This document shows, piece after piece, positions 1 through 8,374 of a DNA stretch of 47,647 nucleotides. How positions within the stretch are numbered: position 1 is the first letter of the stretch; every line of letters starts with the position of its first letter. A program made the position numbers and the translations under genes. Source of the DNA: Candidatus Eiseniibacteriota bacterium (lineage in GTDB: Bacteria; Eisenbacteria; RBG-16-71-46; CAIMUX01; WJJG01); the NCBI GenBank assembly GCA_023129715.1, contig JAGMBO010000110.1, forward strand, positions 1-47,647. Reading direction: 5' to 3'. Under the pieces are notes generated by a model. The model had not been told where the DNA came from. It was given only the letters and a program-made list of their open reading frames with translations, and made no database searches.

Positions 1-1240
1 TCTCCGCCAGCCCGGTCTGGGCACGACCAAACGCCCGCGCCGCCCCGCGGGCGCGTCCGGCACGCGCCAGGGCGGTGCCGATCAGACGCCACGCCTGCGC
101 CGCTTCCCAACGGGCTCCGGCGCTGGCCGCCCTGCGGCGCGCCCTCCAGGCGACGGCCACAGCCTCCCGCGGCTGCCCCAGCACAAGCGCCAGGGTCGCC
201 TTCCGCAGTTCGAGTTCGATGGCCAGATCCCCATCCGGCGCCAGCCGCGCCGCGATGCGCCCGCCGCAGCGAATCGCCCGGGCAGCCTTCTGGGCCTCCC
301 CCGCGAGCAGGTAGCACTCGGCAAGATACTCGCACGCGAGTCCCTCCTCGCGCGGCAGGGCCATGCGGCGCGCGGCGCGCCAAGCCGCGAGCAGACGCCG
401 CCGTCCCTCCTGAAGCTCGCCGCCGCGAACGGCGACCCATCCGAGCCCGAGTTTGGCGAGCAGGGCGGTCGTCGTCCGCTGCAGGGCATCCGCCTGGATC
501 TGCGCCTCTTCGAACAGGCGCCGGGCGTGGGGCAAGAGGCCGATCAACCCGACGGCCCATCCGCGGTTGAGCAGCACCGTCGTGTGCCCGGCGACGTCAC
601 CCGCTTGCCAGTAGTGCTGGGCCGCCTGGGCATAGAGACGATTCGCCTCTGCGAGAGCTCCCTTGCGCCGGGCGACGATCGCCAGCAGGGCGTAGGCATC
701 CCCCTTGAAAATCTCGCTGCCCGCGTCGCTCGCGTGCCGTGCGGCAGCAAGCCCCCAACGCTCGGCGGCATCTTCATCGCCGCGCACCGCGGCGATCCGC
801 GCCTGCAGGAGCGCCAGCCGCGCACGAGTGGCCGGCGCCGTGCGCGGAAGGATCTCGGTTTCCAACGCGTCGAGCAGGAACGCCGCTCTCGCATACCGGC
901 CCCCGCGCGTTTCCTCCTGGGCCAGCGTGAGGGTCGCCAGGGCGAGCGCCTCGGGGTCGCGCACCTGGCCGGCGTCGATCGCATCCCGAACCCATGGCAC
1001 GCCGGTCCTCAGGTGGTCACGATGGTTGAGTCGCGCACAGGCACTCAGCAGCAAACAGAGTCCTTCGACCGCGTGGGGCGGGATCTCCGCGGCGATCCAA
1101 TGGGATGAGATCGCCGGCCAGAGCAGATCATGCACCGACTGCCAGGCCCCGGCGGAGAGATACTGGCGCGCCCCGGCGCAGAGTGGTTTCCACTCCGTCG
1201 CCGAGCGCACGCGTGCCTTGTCAGAACCGCTGGCCGGCAT
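1..1240 (-). CDS. TPR-repeat protein, N-terminal part (runs off the left edge)
   Basis: The minus strand stays open from an ATG at 1240 to the window edge (413 codons). The product begins MPASGSDKARVRSATEW and is almost entirely helical, with tetratricopeptide-like pairs such as GDAYALLAIVARRKGALAEA and HTTVLLNRGWAVGLIGLLP. Ala/Leu/Arg-rich helices recur about every 34-40 residues. No enzyme motif is visible in the part present. A weak GGCGGAG lies upstream of the ATG. TPR arrays of this kind act as peptide or protein sensors in regulators; here they could be the N-terminus of a TPR regulator whose output domain is off the window, which is inference. The same strand carries the small exported repeat peptide 145 bp upstream, so the two may be co-transcribed. 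Reading in the other minus-strand frames gives Arg/Pro-rich low-quality peptides, which supports this frame. Confidence 0.72.
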   Translation of the reverse strand, partial: MPASGSDKARVRSATEWKPLCAGARQYLSAGAWQSVHDLLWPAISSHWIAAEIPPHAVEGLCLLLSACARLNHRDHLRTGVPWVRDAIDAGQVRDPEALALATLTLAQEETRGGRYARAAFLLDALETEILPRTAPATRARLALLQARIAAVRGDEDAAERWGLAAARHASDAGSEIFKGDAYALLAIVARRKGALAEANRLYAQAAQHYWQAGDVAGHTTVLLNRGWAVGLIGLLPHARRLFEEAQIQADALQRTTTALLAKLGLGWVAVRGGELQEGRRRLLAAWRAARRMALPREEGLACEYLAECYLLAGEAQKAARAIRCGGRIAARLAPDGDLAIELELRKATLALVLGQPREAVAVAWRARRRAASAGARWEAAQAWRLIGTALARAGRARGAARAFGRAQTGLAE

Positions 1241-1385
1241 GCATAGGGCTCCGCCATTGACCGTGGCAAGTGTGCGCGCTGCCGTATCCCGATGCGCTGG
1301 GAGCAAAAGGCAGCCCGTCCGCCGCCACGGAGGACAGTCTGAGAGCGTCTGTTGTGAATCCGCTACGGGGATGCGTCAGGGGGGA

Positions 1386-1685
1386 CTACTCGGGGAATTC
1401 CTCGCCGAGGGCGTCACCGGTGTCCTTCGAGGTCGACTTCTCCGGAAACTCCTCACCCAGTCCGTCGTCGAAGATCCAGAGTACTAGAACTGAAATCTTC
1501 AGCCCGACGGCGGCCAGAACCGGCCCCAGGACAACTTCGGGGAATTCCTCTCCCAGCGCATCGGTGGAGGATCCACCCTTACTGCTTCGGCAACCGTCGG
1601 TTGCTTCTGCACTCGCCGGGATGCTCCCGATCGTGAGAAAAGCGAGCAGGACAGCCAAGATCCAGGGCTGGTGCCGTTTCTTCAT
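1386..1685 (-). CDS. Small exported peptide with three LGEEFPE repeats
   Basis: A 99-residue protein with an N-terminal signal peptide (basic MKKRHQP, hydrophobic ILAVLLAFLTIG, likely cleavage after ASA near residue 26). The mature part has three copies of a nonapeptide, (D/G)ALGEEFPE or DGLGEEFPE, the last at the extreme C-terminus. A hydrophobic stretch (VVLGPVLAAVGLKISVLVLW) separates copies one and two. The copies use different synonymous codons (GGC/GGT/GGA, TTC/TTT, CCC/CCG, GAG/GAA), so the peptide rather than the DNA is conserved. The start has a clear GGAGGCG Shine-Dalgarno 5-6 nt upstream. The gene directly precedes the TPR protein on the same strand. I do not recognise the family. 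A secreted signal-peptide precursor read by the TPR protein is a hypothesis; a small envelope protein is the plain alternative. Confidence 0.7.
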   Translation of the reverse strand: MKKRHQPWILAVLLAFLTIGSIPASAEATDGCRSSKGGSSTDALGEEFPEVVLGPVLAAVGLKISVLVLWIFDDGLGEEFPEKSTSKDTGDALGEEFPE

Positions 1686-2279
1686 CGTACGCCTCCGTGC
1701 GTATCCTGTTTTCCGGCTCGCAGACCGCTCCGGGCCGCGAGCCCCTCTTCATGGCTGCATGAAAAGGCTAGGTTCAGCCACTGGGAATTGTCAACTGGTT
1801 ATTCTCAACCAGGCAGGACGGAAGAGGCCGGCGGGCGGCCCGGCCGAATTGCCGGATACCAGCCTAGATGATTATCGGGCAACTGCTTAGTGGATTCTGG
1901 GCACGTGGGCACGCGATCCGTCAACCATGGTGGAGCGACGGAGCGCTGGCGCCGGTGCGGAAGGGGCGGAATCAGGCCTTCGGGAGCGTCGGAGAAGAGC
2001 GAAGGACAATCAAGAAAGCCGCACAGATGCAGCATTACTGCATCTGTGCGCGTATGCGGGGGGCGTGGAGGGGAGCGATGATCGACGGTCAGCTACGGCG
2101 CCGGCCACCGGCTCACCAAATGAGGGGCAGAATCACTTCGCCTGATTCGGCACAGTCCAATGGGACGAGCGGACCGGATCAGACCGGCGGGACCGGCGCG
2201 CACCGGAGCAGACCCTTTGCCGCAGCGCGTGCCTTGGGTCCGCTCGCCCCCGGCACGTTGGAGATTCGTGCAAAACCAT
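1686..2279. other. Non-coding interval between two minus-strand genes
   Basis: I see no convincing gene here; the open frames lack ribosome sites and have Arg/Gly/Pro-rich translations. It contains the strong hairpin at 2020-2050 and a weaker 6-bp inverted repeat (CTGGTT/AACCAG) near 1795-1812. The promoter of the repeat-peptide gene should lie in 1690-1780, but no clear -35/-10 pair is visible. Confidence 0.5.
2020..2050 (-). terminator. Perfect 13-bp hairpin with 5-nt loop
   Basis: The arms CGCACAGATGCAG (2020-2032) and CTGCATCTGTGCG (2038-2050) are perfectly complementary around the loop CATTA. It lies downstream of the 136-aa minus-strand gene. The minus strand continues into a pyrimidine-rich stretch (GGCTTTCTTG) but has no full U-tract. 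It could be a terminator or a dyad binding site; the sequence alone does not decide. Confidence 0.45.
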
Positions 2280-3108: not shown

Positions 3109-3137
3109 TTGCCCCATTCGGACAAGTGTGCTATATT
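3109..3137 (+). promoter_or_regulatory. Sigma70-type promoter of the kinase-AAA-TPR gene
   Basis: TTGCCC (3109-3114), a 17-bp spacer and TATATT (3132-3137) give four of six and five of six consensus matches at ideal spacing. Transcription would begin near 3144, which rules out the upstream GTG at 3128 as the translation start. The -10 region shares AAGTG..CTAT with the promoter candidate at 16980-17007. Confidence 0.55.
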
Positions 3138-3262
3138 GGTGCAATCTAGACTTGCTGTCTCGCACCAGTCGTGGAGAGACCGAACCGCCGCCGAGAGAGT
3201 GCTCTCCGGCGCACCAGCGCTCGGACGTGATGTCCGTCCGCTCCGCTGAAGGCAGCATCACC

Positions 3263-6200
3263 ATGCCCCTTGCCGACCTGAGGTATGAACCGCTGCGCGA
3301 ACTCGGCCGTTCCCCCGAGCGCGCCACGACCGCCGCGCGCGATCACTTGACCGGGGCCTCGATCGTCTTGAAAACCGGCTCCCCCAACTCGCTCGGCCGA
3401 GAGTTGGGCGTCCACCTCGCCCTCCCGCCGGGGATTGCCCCGACGATCTGCGACGCGTCGTGGACCCCGGATCAGCGCCTGGTGCTCGCCCTAGAGCACC
3501 TCTCCGGGGAGACCCTGGGCGCTGCCGCCGGCCGCGTCCCCCCCCGTGAGCGTCCTGCCCTCGTCTTTGCCATCGCCGATGCGCTCGCCCAGATGCACCG
3601 CGGCGGTGTCATTCACGCCGATCTCTCTCCGGAAAACATCTTCCTGCTCGAGACACCCCAAGGAACTGCCGTGCGCCTACTCGACTTCGGCTCCGCCTTC
3701 GGGCCCACGACGGACGCGCCGCTGCAGGAGCAAGAGCGCGGCGCAACCCCGGGCCTCGTCGCCCCTGAGCTCCTGCAAGGGTGGATCATCGACGAACGGG
3801 TCGATCAGTTCTCCCTGGCGGCAACCCTGCGCGCGTGCTGGCCCGAACTGGAGCGAGACTCCCAGTGGGCGCCGCTCATCGAGCAACTCTCCGATCCCGT
3901 GCCCGCCCGCCGCTTCCCTGAAATGGCCGCGGTCTGCCGGGCACTCGCTTCACGGTTCGCGCTGCCTTGCGGCGCACCTTCCCCGCCGCGTTTCCCTGCG
4001 GGTGCGTTGCGCGGCCGCCGGGCCCTGATCGAGGAGCTGTGCCGGCGTGCCACGGCGGCACCCGGAACCCGTCTTCTGCTCCAGGCGCGACCCGGCGTGG
4101 GTCTCACCCGGCTTCTTCTAGAGGCGGTCGGCGCGTTGGCCGCGGCGGGTGCCCGCCCCGCGCGCATCATCGATCTGGCGACTCCGCGTCGAGCTCCGCA
4201 GCCGCGCGCGGCGCTCGCCCTGATGCGCGCGGCCACGGAACGCGAGGAGACCCTGCTCTGCGGTGTGGCCGATCCGTCCCCCGATCTCCGTGGTTGGCCC
4301 ACGCCGTTCGCCGCTGACTTGTGCGACGAGCTGCGTGCCGACTCCTGGAAACGCATCGCCGTCCTGCCGCTCGAAGCCTCCGACATCGAGGAATTGCTCG
4401 TCGATAGCCTGGGAGGCGCGGGCGAGGGCGTTGAGCAACTCGCGGCCCAGCTCGCCGAGCGCACCGCGGGCGACTTGCACCTCTGCGCCCAAGGCTTCGC
4501 CAGGGCCATCGCGCGCGCCGGAGAGGCGGATGGTCTCGCCTGGAACCTCGATCCGGCCAAGGCCGCCGCAGCGATCGCTGATTGGGATGTTCCGGCTTAT
4601 CCCCCGAGTCTCCACAACCTGCCCACCCGCCTGCGGGCTGGGTTGCAGCTCTGCGCCCGCGCGGGCCCCGAGATGCCGCGCGTCGTGGCGCAGGGACTCA
4701 TCGAGCACTGCCTGCCGCCTGAGGATTTCCACCTGCTCTGCGCCCACGGTCTGCTCGCCGCCAGGCGAGCAGACCGGGTCGCCTTCGCAACCGAGCGGCT
4801 GTGGCGCGAAAGCGAACTCGCCGGTTCCCCCGACTTACCTCACCAGCGCGATACCGACCGGATGGTCGATGCCTGGTTGCACGAGCACTGGCCTCCCGAC
4901 CCGGCTAGAACACAAGAATCGGCGCGCGCCGCCCGCCGCGCGGCATCCTTGGATGATGTGGATCGCGAGGCCGCCTATCTCGCCGCCGCCCTGCAGCGCG
5001 CCTACGTCGAACAACGCTGGGGTCAGATCCGCATCCTGCTCGCCTACCCCGATGATCCCCCCACCACCTGGGCCCTTGACCCCACCCTGGTCCGCGTACG
5101 CCGGTTGCACGAACGCCTGCGGGGTCGCTGGAGCCGGGCAGGCCTACTCCTCGCCGCAGCCCGGGGGATTCGCCCCGTGGCCCGCGCCATCGGCGATCGG
5201 CTCCTCGTCCACCTGGCCGACGCGCACGAGGTCGCCGAGTCACAGGAAGCATTGATCCTGCTCCTCGATCACACGGTCAACGACCGTCGGGCAACGTCAC
5301 GCTTCGAAACCTATGCTCAGCGTCTCGAAGCCGCCCGGCCGCAAGATGAAGATGCCCTGGCCGGCGTCCTCGACTTCTATCGCGCCCAGCGCGCGCTCGG
5401 CGCCGGTGAGACGGCAGCCGCCGGCCGCCTGGCCCGGCGCGCCGCCGAGCGCCTGCGTGGCAGCGGCCGCCGCCAGGAAACTCTCAGTCTGCAGATGCTT
5501 GCGATCCTCGGCTACGCGCGCAATCCGGAGCAGTCGATCGCCCAGCTGCACCACGCCGTCGCCCAGGCGCCCGATGCGGAACTCGAGGCCCTGCTCCGCC
5601 GCAACCTCTCTCTGATGCATGCCCGCCACGGCGATCCTGCGGCGGCGGCGGAGTGTGCCGAGCAGGGCATCCATCGTCTCTGGGGCCGAGTTTCCCCGAA
5701 GCGGCTGACCGGATTGCGCATTCAGCGTGCGCTCGCGTGGGCGGATCTCGATTACACGATGCGCGCGCTCGACGAAGCCCTGCAGCTGCAGCGCCTCGCC
5801 GGCGTGCGCCGGCACCGCGACCATCGCATCACCGTGCGGCTGCTCCTGGGCACCTGTCTCATGGTGCGCCACGCCTCCCGCGCCGCGCTGCGCGAAATCG
5901 CCTCGGCCTGGGAAGAAACCGCCGCCGGCTGCAATCCCGGGCTGCGCAGCGACGCCTTACGCTGCCTGATCGAGGCGATCCTCGACCGGGAGGACTGGTC
6001 CTTCGCCGCGACCTACGCGGATCGGCTGCGGCTCGAGGGCGTCTCGCGGGACAACGAGGACCCAACCGTGAAGGCGCGGGCCGGAGCGTTGCACGCCCAG
6101 GCAACCGGAGACCTGCCCCGGGCTGCCGCGCTTCTAACCGCCCGCCTCGCGGAGGCGCGCGCGCTGGTTCAACACCTGGCGGCCGCGCGTTTCCTCCATC

Positions 6201-6559
6201 ATCTGGGGGTTGTACATCTGGAACTGGCCCGGCAAGCCGCCGGGAGCCGGCGCCAACGACATGCCCGCATCGCCGGCGAGTTCTTCGGCGAGGAAACCGG
6301 CCGCCTCGTTACCCGCGGGCATGGCTACTACCGGGCCCGCGCCTTGCTTGGCTTCGCCCGCGCCCGGGCGCTGCTTGCCGACCCCGCGGGGGCGGCCACG
6401 GCGGTCAATGAGGCAGTTGAGATCGCTCGCCGCAGCGAGAGTCTCGGCTTACTGACCGAGTGCTTGCAGGCGCGCGTGGAGCTGCAGGTTTCGTCCGACA
6501 GGGGTGCGGGGGATGAACCGCTGCGCGCAGGATCGCCTGCGTCGCCCCCCCGCGGATAG
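3263..6559 (+). CDS. Ser/Thr kinase-like / AAA-like ATPase / TPR regulator
   Basis: About 1098 residues from the ATG at 3263, chosen because it lies downstream of the predicted promoter and has GAAGG about 10 nt upstream; ATG 3230 is an alternative. Residues 8-230 are a protein-kinase fold: candidate ATP lysine in IVLK (37), catalytic loop HADLSPEN (118-125), DFG (141-143) and an APE-like VAPE. Ser replaces the usual Lys of the catalytic loop, as in other bacterial DxSPxN kinases. Residues 245-500 look like a STAND/AAA ATPase, but the P-loop reads ARPGVGLTR, with Leu for the essential Lys. The rest, about 550 residues, is TPR-like helices. The architecture resembles PknK-type regulators. It is followed 21 bp later by the GAF-AAA-Fis gene, a likely operon partner. 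Kinase activity is plausible; NTP hydrolysis by the middle domain is doubtful. Confidence 0.85.
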   Translation: MPLADLRYEPLRELGRSPERATTAARDHLTGASIVLKTGSPNSLGRELGVHLALPPGIAPTICDASWTPDQRLVLALEHLSGETLGAAAGRVPPRERPALVFAIADALAQMHRGGVIHADLSPENIFLLETPQGTAVRLLDFGSAFGPTTDAPLQEQERGATPGLVAPELLQGWIIDERVDQFSLAATLRACWPELERDSQWAPLIEQLSDPVPARRFPEMAAVCRALASRFALPCGAPSPPRFPAGALRGRRALIEELCRRATAAPGTRLLLQARPGVGLTRLLLEAVGALAAAGARPARIIDLATPRRAPQPRAALALMRAATEREETLLCGVADPSPDLRGWPTPFAADLCDELRADSWKRIAVLPLEASDIEELLVDSLGGAGEGVEQLAAQLAERTAGDLHLCAQGFARAIARAGEADGLAWNLDPAKAAAAIADWDVPAYPPSLHNLPTRLRAGLQLCARAGPEMPRVVAQGLIEHCLPPEDFHLLCAHGLLAARRADRVAFATERLWRESELAGSPDLPHQRDTDRMVDAWLHEHWPPDPARTQESARAARRAASLDDVDREAAYLAAALQRAYVEQRWGQIRILLAYPDDPPTTWALDPTLVRVRRLHERLRGRWSRAGLLLAAARGIRPVARAIGDRLLVHLADAHEVAESQEALILLLDHTVNDRRATSRFETYAQRLEAARPQDEDALAGVLDFYRAQRALGAGETAAAGRLARRAAERLRGSGRRQETLSLQMLAILGYARNPEQSIAQLHHAVAQAPDAELEALLRRNLSLMHARHGDPAAAAECAEQGIHRLWGRVSPKRLTGLRIQRALAWADLDYTMRALDEALQLQRLAGVRRHRDHRITVRLLLGTCLMVRHASRAALREIASAWEETAAGCNPGLRSDALRCLIEAILDREDWSFAATYADRLRLEGVSRDNEDPTVKARAGALHAQATGDLPRAAALLTARLAEARALVQHLAAARFLHHLGVVHLELARQAAGSRRQRHARIAGEFFGEETGRLVTRGHGYYRARALLGFARARALLADPAGAATAVNEAVEIARRSESLGLLTECLQARVELQVSSDRGAGDEPLRAGSPASPPRG

Positions 6560-6580
6560 ACGACGAAGGGAGTGCCCTGA

Positions 6581-8374
6581 GTGTCCAAGAACGTCGCTGA
6601 CGAAGATCCCCGGCGCCGTGCGCCCCGGCCCTCGCCGCGGGCCGACTTGGAGGAGGCCGAGGGTCTGCTCCAGGACTTGGAACGCGTGCGCCGGAAGCCC
6701 TCTACCGCCCAAAAACGCAAACACCAGCAGCACCTGCGCAGGCAGGTCGCCCGCTGGAGCACCCAGCGGGCGCTCGATGCCTTCTCCGAGCTAGCGGGGG
6801 CGATGGGCACAGCCACCGGCCTTCACAGTCTGGGCCGCAGCATTCTCGATACCGCGATTCGGTCGCTGGGTCTTGAGCGGGGAATCCTCTTCCTCGGACG
6901 CGGAGACGAGGGCGGGCTGGTTGCCATGGTCAGCACGGATATCCATGGCAACGAGCTGGGCGAGATCGAGCGCGTCAGCACGACCATCCTGCGACGCGGC
7001 CATCGAGGCGAGGTGATCGTCAGTGCCGATGCGGCCGCCGATCCCCGCTTCCGCAATGCGCCCAGCCTGCGGGTCAAGGGCATGCGCACGGTGCTCTGCG
7101 CCCCACTGATCGTCCAGGCTGAGCCAGTCGGCGTACTCTACCTGGACGCACCTGCCCAATCGGTCCGGCTGCCGGAGGATGCGGCCCACTTCCTGATCGC
7201 CTTTGCGCGCCTTGCCGCCGCAGCTGTCGACCAGGCGCGCCAGGCCAACGACGTCATCCGAGAAAACGCCCGGCTCCGCGGGCGCCTGCAAGCGCTCGAG
7301 GCCTTGGGCACCCTGCCGGTGGCTAGCGAGACGATGCACCGCGTGCTCCAGCGCGCCCGCCTCGTGGCCCAAGCCGATCTTCCCGTCCTGATCGTCGGTG
7401 AACCCGGGACCGAGAAGGAGGCGCTCGCACGCGTTATCCACCAGGCTGGGCCGCGCGCACTCCACCCCTTCGTCCCCCTCGCCTGCAGCGTGCCGCCCCC
7501 GGAGATGATCGAGGCAATGCTCTTCGGACGACGCCGGCCCCAACCTCATGATGACCGTCCGGGGGGCGCACCCCCCCCATCGATAATCGGCCTGCTGCGC
7601 CAAGCGAATCACGGAATCCTCTTCCTCGACGAGCTCGATGCGCTCGACCTCGAGATTCAGGCCAAGCTCACCGAAGTGCTTGGCTACGGCCGCGCGGTTC
7701 CCGAGGGAGGGCGCAAGGGATACCAAATCGATACGTTGTTCATCGCGACGAGCTCTCGCCGCGGCACATCGGACGAGCCCGACAGCCCGCTGCTCAATGC
7801 CTTGATCGGAAAGGCCGGGGGCTGCGAGCTGCACATCCCACCCCTGCGCGAGCGACCCGAGGATGTCGCTCTGTGGGTCGACTACCTCCGCCGCAGCCAA
7901 AGCCTCGAGTCGCCCGGACAGGCTCCGGGACGCTTCACCGCCGATGCCATCGCCCTGCTGAGCGCGGAGCCCTGGCCGGGCAATGTCCGTCAGCTCGCCG
8001 GCGTCGTGGCGCGCGCCTTGCTTCTGCCGCATCGCCGGATCGACGCGGCCGCCCTGCGCACCCTGATCGCCGGCAGCGCCGGGCCGCCCGAGGAGCCGCG
8101 ACGCGCTGCAGCCCCGCCCACTCAACCGGTGCGGCCCTTCGTGGAGCTCGAACGCGAGGCCCTGCGTCAGGCACTGACCCGCGCGCGGGGCAACAAGTCA
8201 AAGGCCGCCAGGATCCTCGGATTGCATCGCAACACCCTCATGCGGCGCCTGCGCAAGTTCGGTCTCAGCGACGATGGACAAGCGCCCCGTACAAAGGACC
8301 CCGGCGAATCCATGACCCGAGCTCACCCGGCAAGGAGGGGACGCGCTGGAAGGAAACCACCGCGGAACCGATGA
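6581..8374 (+). CDS. GAF-AAA-Fis regulator of the sigma54-activator type, degenerate
   Basis: It has a GTG start with GAAGGGAG about 8 nt upstream and codes for 597 residues. Residues 20-60 are charged helix, 75-220 a GAF sensor domain, and 245-480 an enhancer-binding-protein AAA module. Residues 525-565 are a Fis-type helix-turn-helix (NKSKAARILGLHRNTLMRRL). The P-loop reads GEPGTEKE (273-280) instead of GESGTGKE. Walker B is ILFLDELD (346-353). The GAFTGA loop that contacts sigma54 is absent, replaced by a Pro/Arg/Gly-rich insert (about 317-335). Proteins without this loop cannot activate sigma54 polymerase by the normal route, so it probably acts as a sigma70-type activator or repressor. 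The operon position suggests it is the output of the upstream kinase-TPR protein. Its stop codon lies in the first unit of the tandem repeat. Confidence 0.85.
   Translation: MSKNVADEDPRRRAPRPSPRADLEEAEGLLQDLERVRRKPSTAQKRKHQQHLRRQVARWSTQRALDAFSELAGAMGTATGLHSLGRSILDTAIRSLGLERGILFLGRGDEGGLVAMVSTDIHGNELGEIERVSTTILRRGHRGEVIVSADAAADPRFRNAPSLRVKGMRTVLCAPLIVQAEPVGVLYLDAPAQSVRLPEDAAHFLIAFARLAAAAVDQARQANDVIRENARLRGRLQALEALGTLPVASETMHRVLQRARLVAQADLPVLIVGEPGTEKEALARVIHQAGPRALHPFVPLACSVPPPEMIEAMLFGRRRPQPHDDRPGGAPPPSIIGLLRQANHGILFLDELDALDLEIQAKLTEVLGYGRAVPEGGRKGYQIDTLFIATSSRRGTSDEPDSPLLNALIGKAGGCELHIPPLRERPEDVALWVDYLRRSQSLESPGQAPGRFTADAIALLSAEPWPGNVRQLAGVVARALLLPHRRIDAAALRTLIAGSAGPPEEPRRAAAPPTQPVRPFVELEREALRQALTRARGNKSKAARILGLHRNTLMRRLRKFGLSDDGQAPRTKDPGESMTRAHPARRGRAGRKPPRNR

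Follow-up and report, generated by a model that had tools for sequence, protein, structure and literature searches.

In Candidatus Eisenbacteria and in other phyla, a small gene for an exported precursor protein lies directly upstream of a gene for a sigma54 activator with an N-terminal TPR sensor (a TPR-bEBP). The best explanation of the whole, and one in which we place about even confidence, is a TPR-gated sigma54 switch whose ligand comes from the exported precursor. The precursor's short acidic motif, which is LGEEFPE in the window (the whole stretch of 47,647 nt analyzed here) and GDPDxP in most relatives, would be this ligand or part of it and would be read by the TPR superhelix. Once bound, the ligand would gate the AAA+ domain and with it sigma54-dependent transcription at promoters near the activator gene; in several families, these promoters would drive an undescribed structured RNA. 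The window's clade would have multiplied the ligand unit within the precursor, one copy lying at the very C-terminus, a layout that recalls multi-copy pheromone precursors. The steps that we infer are export, processing, either re-entry or capture in the cytoplasm, binding, and the sign of regulation, and the switch would report either cell density or the cell's own export status.

If true, TPR-read peptide signaling would extend to Gram-negative lineages and to sigma54 control. The module names the peptides, the receptor domain, and the promoters, which makes the question directly testable, and the work also brings to light downstream RNA elements outside any Rfam family. The window comes from a Candidatus Eisenbacteria metagenome-assembled genome (MAG) that is 96% complete, and the named relatives of its TPR part are likewise Candidatus Eisenbacteria MAGs.

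The precursor and its LGEEFPE units

The precursor gene occupies positions 1386–1685 of the minus strand and encodes 99 aa from an ATG start, as read from the ORF translation and from homologues. The first-pass annotation had drawn it too wide (1241–1685), including a 145-nt gap; the next gene starts at about 1240. Its account of the protein, namely a signal peptide followed by three repeat units of which the last is C-terminal, holds up. The predicted signal peptide MKKRHQPWILAVLLAFLTIGSIPASAEA (1602–1685) was called from composition (MKKRH, a hydrophobic core, and an A-E-A site) rather than with a dedicated predictor. Pattern matching places the units at 1536–1556 (aa 44–50), 1440–1460 (aa 76–82), and 1389–1409 (aa 93–99), all on the minus strand, and the third runs right up to the stop codon. 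After MKKRHQPWILAVLLAFLTIGSIPASAEA, the mature part thus reads TDGCRSSKGGSST-DALGEEFPE-VVLGPVLAAVGLKISVLVLWIFD-DGLGEEFPE-KSTSKDTG-DALGEEFPE, giving an extended nonapeptide D[A/G]LGEEFPE.

The codons of the three copies vary while the peptide stays constant, as had been proposed: summed over pairs, there are 13 differences at third codon positions and none at first or second positions. Across 11 unit copies from four genes, the mean differences per pair are 0.18, 0, and 3.8 at codon positions 1, 2, and 3, respectively. Nearly all variation among the unit codons is at third positions, and the LGEEFPE unit is therefore selected as a peptide. At the DNA level, the exact LGEEFPE pattern turns up 10 times, always inside such a precursor, in 3 of the phylum's 47 genomes. 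A fourth LGEEFPE-like match in the window's genome (C137) was discarded as chance, being GTGEEFPE in an unrelated 250-aa frame.

A search for LGEEFPE-like repeats beside TPR genes in related genomes, as the first-pass annotation had suggested, found them in three genera of the window's family, where the unit is conserved at one, two, three, or five copies. The G001 precursor has five units, of which the first three occupy the residue positions seen in the window's protein, and G003 has a two-unit precursor (C741) and a second one with the single unit LGEEFPD (C149). Each LGEEFPE precursor gene is followed directly by that of a TPR-sigma54 activator, and wherever two or more units are present the final one is C-terminal. 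Other acidic motifs are found upstream of activators of the same family: GGADEWPS and GGLEDWPA in G002, DGDIDDYP in G004, and GGSWPES on C4 of G003. LGEEFPE is the window clade's version of a wider acidic motif class. A single change on the TPR tree suffices to account for the LGEEFP bearers, with modest support for their grouping (69/75). The precursors (44 members compared) are without a family assignment in Pfam or NCBIfam, apart from one marginal DUF2946 match.

The partner activator and its linkage to exported precursors

The gene downstream of the precursor (1–1240, minus strand) encodes the N-terminal TPR sensor of a TPR-sigma54 AAA+-HTH activator and is cut by the start of the contig. 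The assembly break falls inside the gene: positions 1–150 repeat, base for base, the final 150 bases of contig C183 of the same genome (G000). On C183, the reading frame goes on to encode an AAA+ domain of the sigma54-interacting type and a Fis-type HTH, with a Walker A motif (GESGTGKD), a Walker B motif (LFFDEIADL), and the sigma54 loop GAYTGA. From the overlap, the two contigs (C14 and C183) very likely join within the activator gene; the join is called very likely rather than proven because such overlaps also arise at assembly branches. Intact relatives of the window's activator share its TPR, AAA+, and HTH architecture, with Sigma54_activat matches at E-values of 1e-46 to 4e-50 as well as AAA lid and Fis HTH domains. 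When a GAFTGA-like pattern was searched for, 16 of 88 TPR-bEBPs gave no match. The window's genome has two rpoN genes. Of the earlier description of the next gene as a TPR array, the TPR superhelix stands and the plain array does not, as the sigma54 AAA+ domain and the HTH are also present.

The TPR part is modeled as a superhelix of ten TPRs (pLDDT 95). In a Foldseek comparison with the PDB, the top TM-scores among the 50 matches listed belong to apo NprR (0.66 by query, 0.75 by target), a Bacillus RRNPP quorum sensor. The best E-values among the matches listed go to the TPRs of LGN/Pins, mostly solved with peptide partners, and the 60 PDB sequence matches listed include no RRNPP chain.

We examined linkage in 88 TPR-bEBP reading frames from the Eisenbacteria phylum. 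With a fixed signal-peptide cut-off, a small exported ORF lies just upstream on the same strand in 68 of the 88 and on the opposite strand in 2. Under relaxed criteria (GTG or TTG starts and lower hydrophobicity allowed, plus inspection by eye), about 83 of 88 have an upstream signal-peptide ORF. Such ORFs number 1.25 per kb within the 600 nt upstream vs 0.011 per kb elsewhere on the strand. By a comparable criterion, an upstream exported ORF was found for none of 191 other neighboring genes and for none of five bEBPs or kinases lacking this TPR architecture. The linkage also reaches other phyla, where all 19 testable loci have an upstream exported ORF (three with GTG or TTG starts), in a set of 20 loci from eleven genomes that was picked by strongest TPR match and is not random. 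The activator itself aside, no gene family recurs in more than 3 of 20 neighborhoods. The first-pass annotation had named, as what would speak against the pair, related genomes in which the peptide gene is absent or unlinked or the repeats are not conserved. This was checked and did not turn out so: the pairing is phylum-wide and extends to other phyla, and the unit is conserved in three genera.

These data also bear on the suspicion that the precursor is due to chance or is an annotation artifact, i.e., a spurious ORF with a fortuitous repeat. Spurious ORFs are indeed numerous in a high-GC genome, but the codon-position pattern, the homologues in three genera, the phylum-wide linkage, and the zero matches among controls already refute this reading, which we regard as extremely improbable.

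Most precursors carry a short acidic motif of the GDPDxP type, which in most relatives is single and internal. GDPD is present in 39 of 84 precursors vs 0.35 in shuffles, and motifs in other phyla include GDPDIPEA, GDPDNPVP, GDPEYPEG, GDPDWP, and GGEEYPWG. Orthologous precursors differ most at third codon positions. At one locus (L083:1677-1988 and 2203-2514), two near-identical GDPD-type precursors stand in tandem ahead of one TPR-bEBP. The precursors of most relatives end in a basic-aromatic tail (e.g., WMWRLRTVFRALPSVYLRF), which the window's clade does not have. With the acidic motif single and internal and the C-terminus basic-aromatic in most relatives, the active part could be another segment.

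It had also been suggested to check whether repeat and TPR sequences co-vary. Precursor similarity does track the TPR part better than the AAA+ domain (rho 0.22 vs 0.16; partial correlation 0.18 vs 0.08), and none of 300 permutations came as high. The correlation of precursor with TPR part is weak; linkage explains a share of it and could even be its only cause.

A search for an Opp/Dpp-type binding protein, covering SBP_bac_5 alone among importers, gave no match in the 96%-complete genome, with controls positive in 11 of 14. In-silico docking was tried on an AlphaFold fusion of the five-unit G001 precursor with its TPR domain, in which the one stop codon between the two genes was read through; pLDDT was mostly <50 over the units, and none was confidently placed. 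RRNPP-style signaling is so far, for these two reasons, something that we infer. The same two results make capture of the unexported precursor a serious rival. The TPR-bEBP would then bind the precursor in the cytoplasm and read the state of Sec or of export or, in a variant, the state of the membrane via the basic-aromatic C-terminus. The conservation of that C-terminus in most relatives agrees with such a sensor, as does the position of the precursor gene directly upstream of the activator, with its stop codon often beside the activator's frame. The window's clade, however, has multiplied LGEEFPE, kept the signal peptide, and does without the tail; in this one clade, dosage of a released peptide is the easier fit. 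All in all, we consider an export sensor, its membrane variant included, rather unlikely.

Sigma54 sites and RNA elements beside the activator

Sites of the TGGCA[CT]-N6-TGC type, with at most one mismatch allowed, cluster downstream of the activator genes. Within 700 nt downstream, they occur at 31 of 80 loci of the phylum (1.06 expected from shuffles) and at 7 of 20 loci in other phyla (0.12 expected). Elsewhere, same-strand sites are found upstream of the activator in 4 of 87 cases and inside the gene in 1 of 88. The activators probably act through sigma54 promoters next to their own genes.

Sigma54 autoregulation of the precursor was considered and dropped: precursors as a whole show no excess of -24/-12 sites in front of them, and a conserved one was seen only in a small group of family f9 (L107, L120, L133). 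The window's precursor has a sigma70-type promoter, TTGACA-18-TAGCCT (1765–1794, minus strand), which was read by eye and agrees with that of the G001 homologue (TTGACA-18-TAGTCT). With both precursors under sigma70-type promoters, the precursor-activator unit looks sigma70-driven, and the activator would have its targets elsewhere. A strong terminator-like hairpin of 14 pairs, CGCACAGATGCAGTAATGCTGCATCTGTGCG, lies upstream of the precursor's promoter region (2018–2050, minus strand).

The position of these sites matters for the possibility that the precursor is a secreted product (a coat, adhesion, or antagonistic factor) merely co-located with the regulator, whose repeats bind an extracellular partner while the TPR domain senses something else. 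A product that acts outside the cell or on membranes could have a signal peptide and a basic-aromatic C-terminus, and the fused model without docking fits as well. Against this, the sigma54 sites lie beyond the activator, with no enrichment in front of the precursor genes, and the sigma70-type promoter of the window's precursor is in line with its homologue's; this places the precursor on the input side. We accordingly find a co-located secreted product unlikely.

For the switch proposed here, the window itself offers one local candidate. Its own activator has no sigma54 site downstream. On the minus strand, a sigma54-like site with one mismatch (TGGCACGGCTCCTGCA, 2765–2780) lies 75 nt before an ORF of 136 aa at 2280–2690, which is on the same strand as the precursor and has a strong Shine-Dalgarno sequence and no Pfam family. 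This site is one of two sigma54-like sites in the 47.6-kb window and the only candidate near the activator. The ORF, which is window-specific among the loci compared, is a possible local target. Further on (3128–8374), the window holds a gene for a protein kinase with a long C-terminal part and then one for a GAF-sigma54 activator, on the opposite strand and divergent from the peptide-TPR pair.

The loci of family f10 have, after their downstream sigma54 site, an RNA element of about 450 nt with a covarying 3' domain, in which 10 of 28 pairs are changed on both sides (0 of 500 shuffles reached as many). Fourteen genomes have a single copy each of this element, on contigs carrying a TPR-bEBP (L121:1647-2126 and L162:456-935 on the minus strand, L125:5664-6143, L158:5291-5770, and nine more). 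Within the element, the segment AATACGCCCGGTCAACGAAG hardly varies, and the end looks like a terminator; on one side lies the TPR-bEBP and, in many cases, on the other a tRNA cluster. Family f9 has a second, different conserved RNA-like element of about 330 nt that starts at the sigma54 site (L204:12780-13115, L207:12462-12820, L132:4305-4660), directly downstream of a class of TPR-bEBPs of about 1030–1074 aa. Its model gives weaker matches downstream of orthologous activators in f7 (L108, L111, L114, L143, L148) and f11 (L155), and a weak one, again downstream of an orthologous activator, in f6 (L134). Neither element matches anything in Rfam at the gathering threshold, ARAGORN finds no tmRNA in them, and no element of either kind was found for the window's activator. 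Past the TPR-bEBP and the RNA element, perfect sigma54 sites TGGCACACGGCTTGCT (L204:13320) and TGGCACACCGCTTGCA (L207:13070) lie 28 and 6 nt, respectively, before an exported lipoprotein-like gene.

Taken at its widest, the module could be a widespread, undescribed class of peptide signaling in Gram-negative candidate phyla: a secreted precursor with an acidic unit, a TPR-gated sigma54 activator just downstream, and, for several families, a sigma54-driven structured RNA as the first target, the unit being multiplied (one, two, three, or five copies) in the window's clade. We put this forward tentatively, as possible and still somewhat doubtful.

Comparison with known systems

Our literature search, with most subscription journals outside its reach, found nothing on peptide signaling in Eisenbacteria or on a TPR-sigma54-peptide pairing. 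The combination of an exported peptide and a TPR regulator is known; its pairing with a sigma54 activator looks undescribed.

The nearest relatives in design are the RRNPP/RRNPPA systems, whose members are Rap, Rgg, NprR, PlcR, PrgX, and AimR. As in these, a small exported precursor gene adjoins the gene of a TPR regulator, and the receptor domain is a cytoplasmic TPR fold, here the ten-TPR model that leads to NprR by TM-score among the matches listed. RRNPPA receptors have an N-terminal HTH or a Rap three-helix bundle plus the TPR domain and no other output domain, whereas the output here is a sigma54 AAA+ domain with a C-terminal Fis-type HTH. Further differences are the precursor's position upstream of the receptor, the non-Firmicutes host, and the lack of an SBP_bac_5 match for re-import by Opp. 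RRNPPA has been described within Firmicutes (PMC9765709), as has peptide signaling via cytoplasmic TPR receptors in general (PMC9765709, PMC10075063), and some Phr precursors contain internal identical repeats or pseudo-repeats (PMC11343458). Because its output domains differ, the module is not an RRNPP member and at most works like one. The RRNPP-type likeness first proposed thus survives for the exported precursor paired with a TPR protein; the Rap- or PlcR-like partner gives way to a one-component sigma54 activator.

In the LuxO-Qrr quorum-sensing arm of Vibrio, a sigma54 activator drives sigma54 promoters of regulatory RNA. Here, structured RNAs with a putative regulatory role follow the TPR-bEBP in several families. 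LuxO, a homologue of NtrC (PMC11407668), has a phosphorylated receiver domain, in contrast to the TPR input and linked exported protein seen here. The RNAs are also distinct in lying outside Rfam, and none was seen for the window's own activator.

Lastly, bacterial enhancer-binding proteins (bEBPs) with N-terminal sensor domains include the NtrC, NorR, and DmpR types. The present activators share with them the Sigma54_activat, AAA lid, and Fis HTH domains, the Walker motifs, and the GAYTGA loop. They differ in using a TPR superhelix as sensor and in the nearly constant presence of a small exported protein encoded just upstream.
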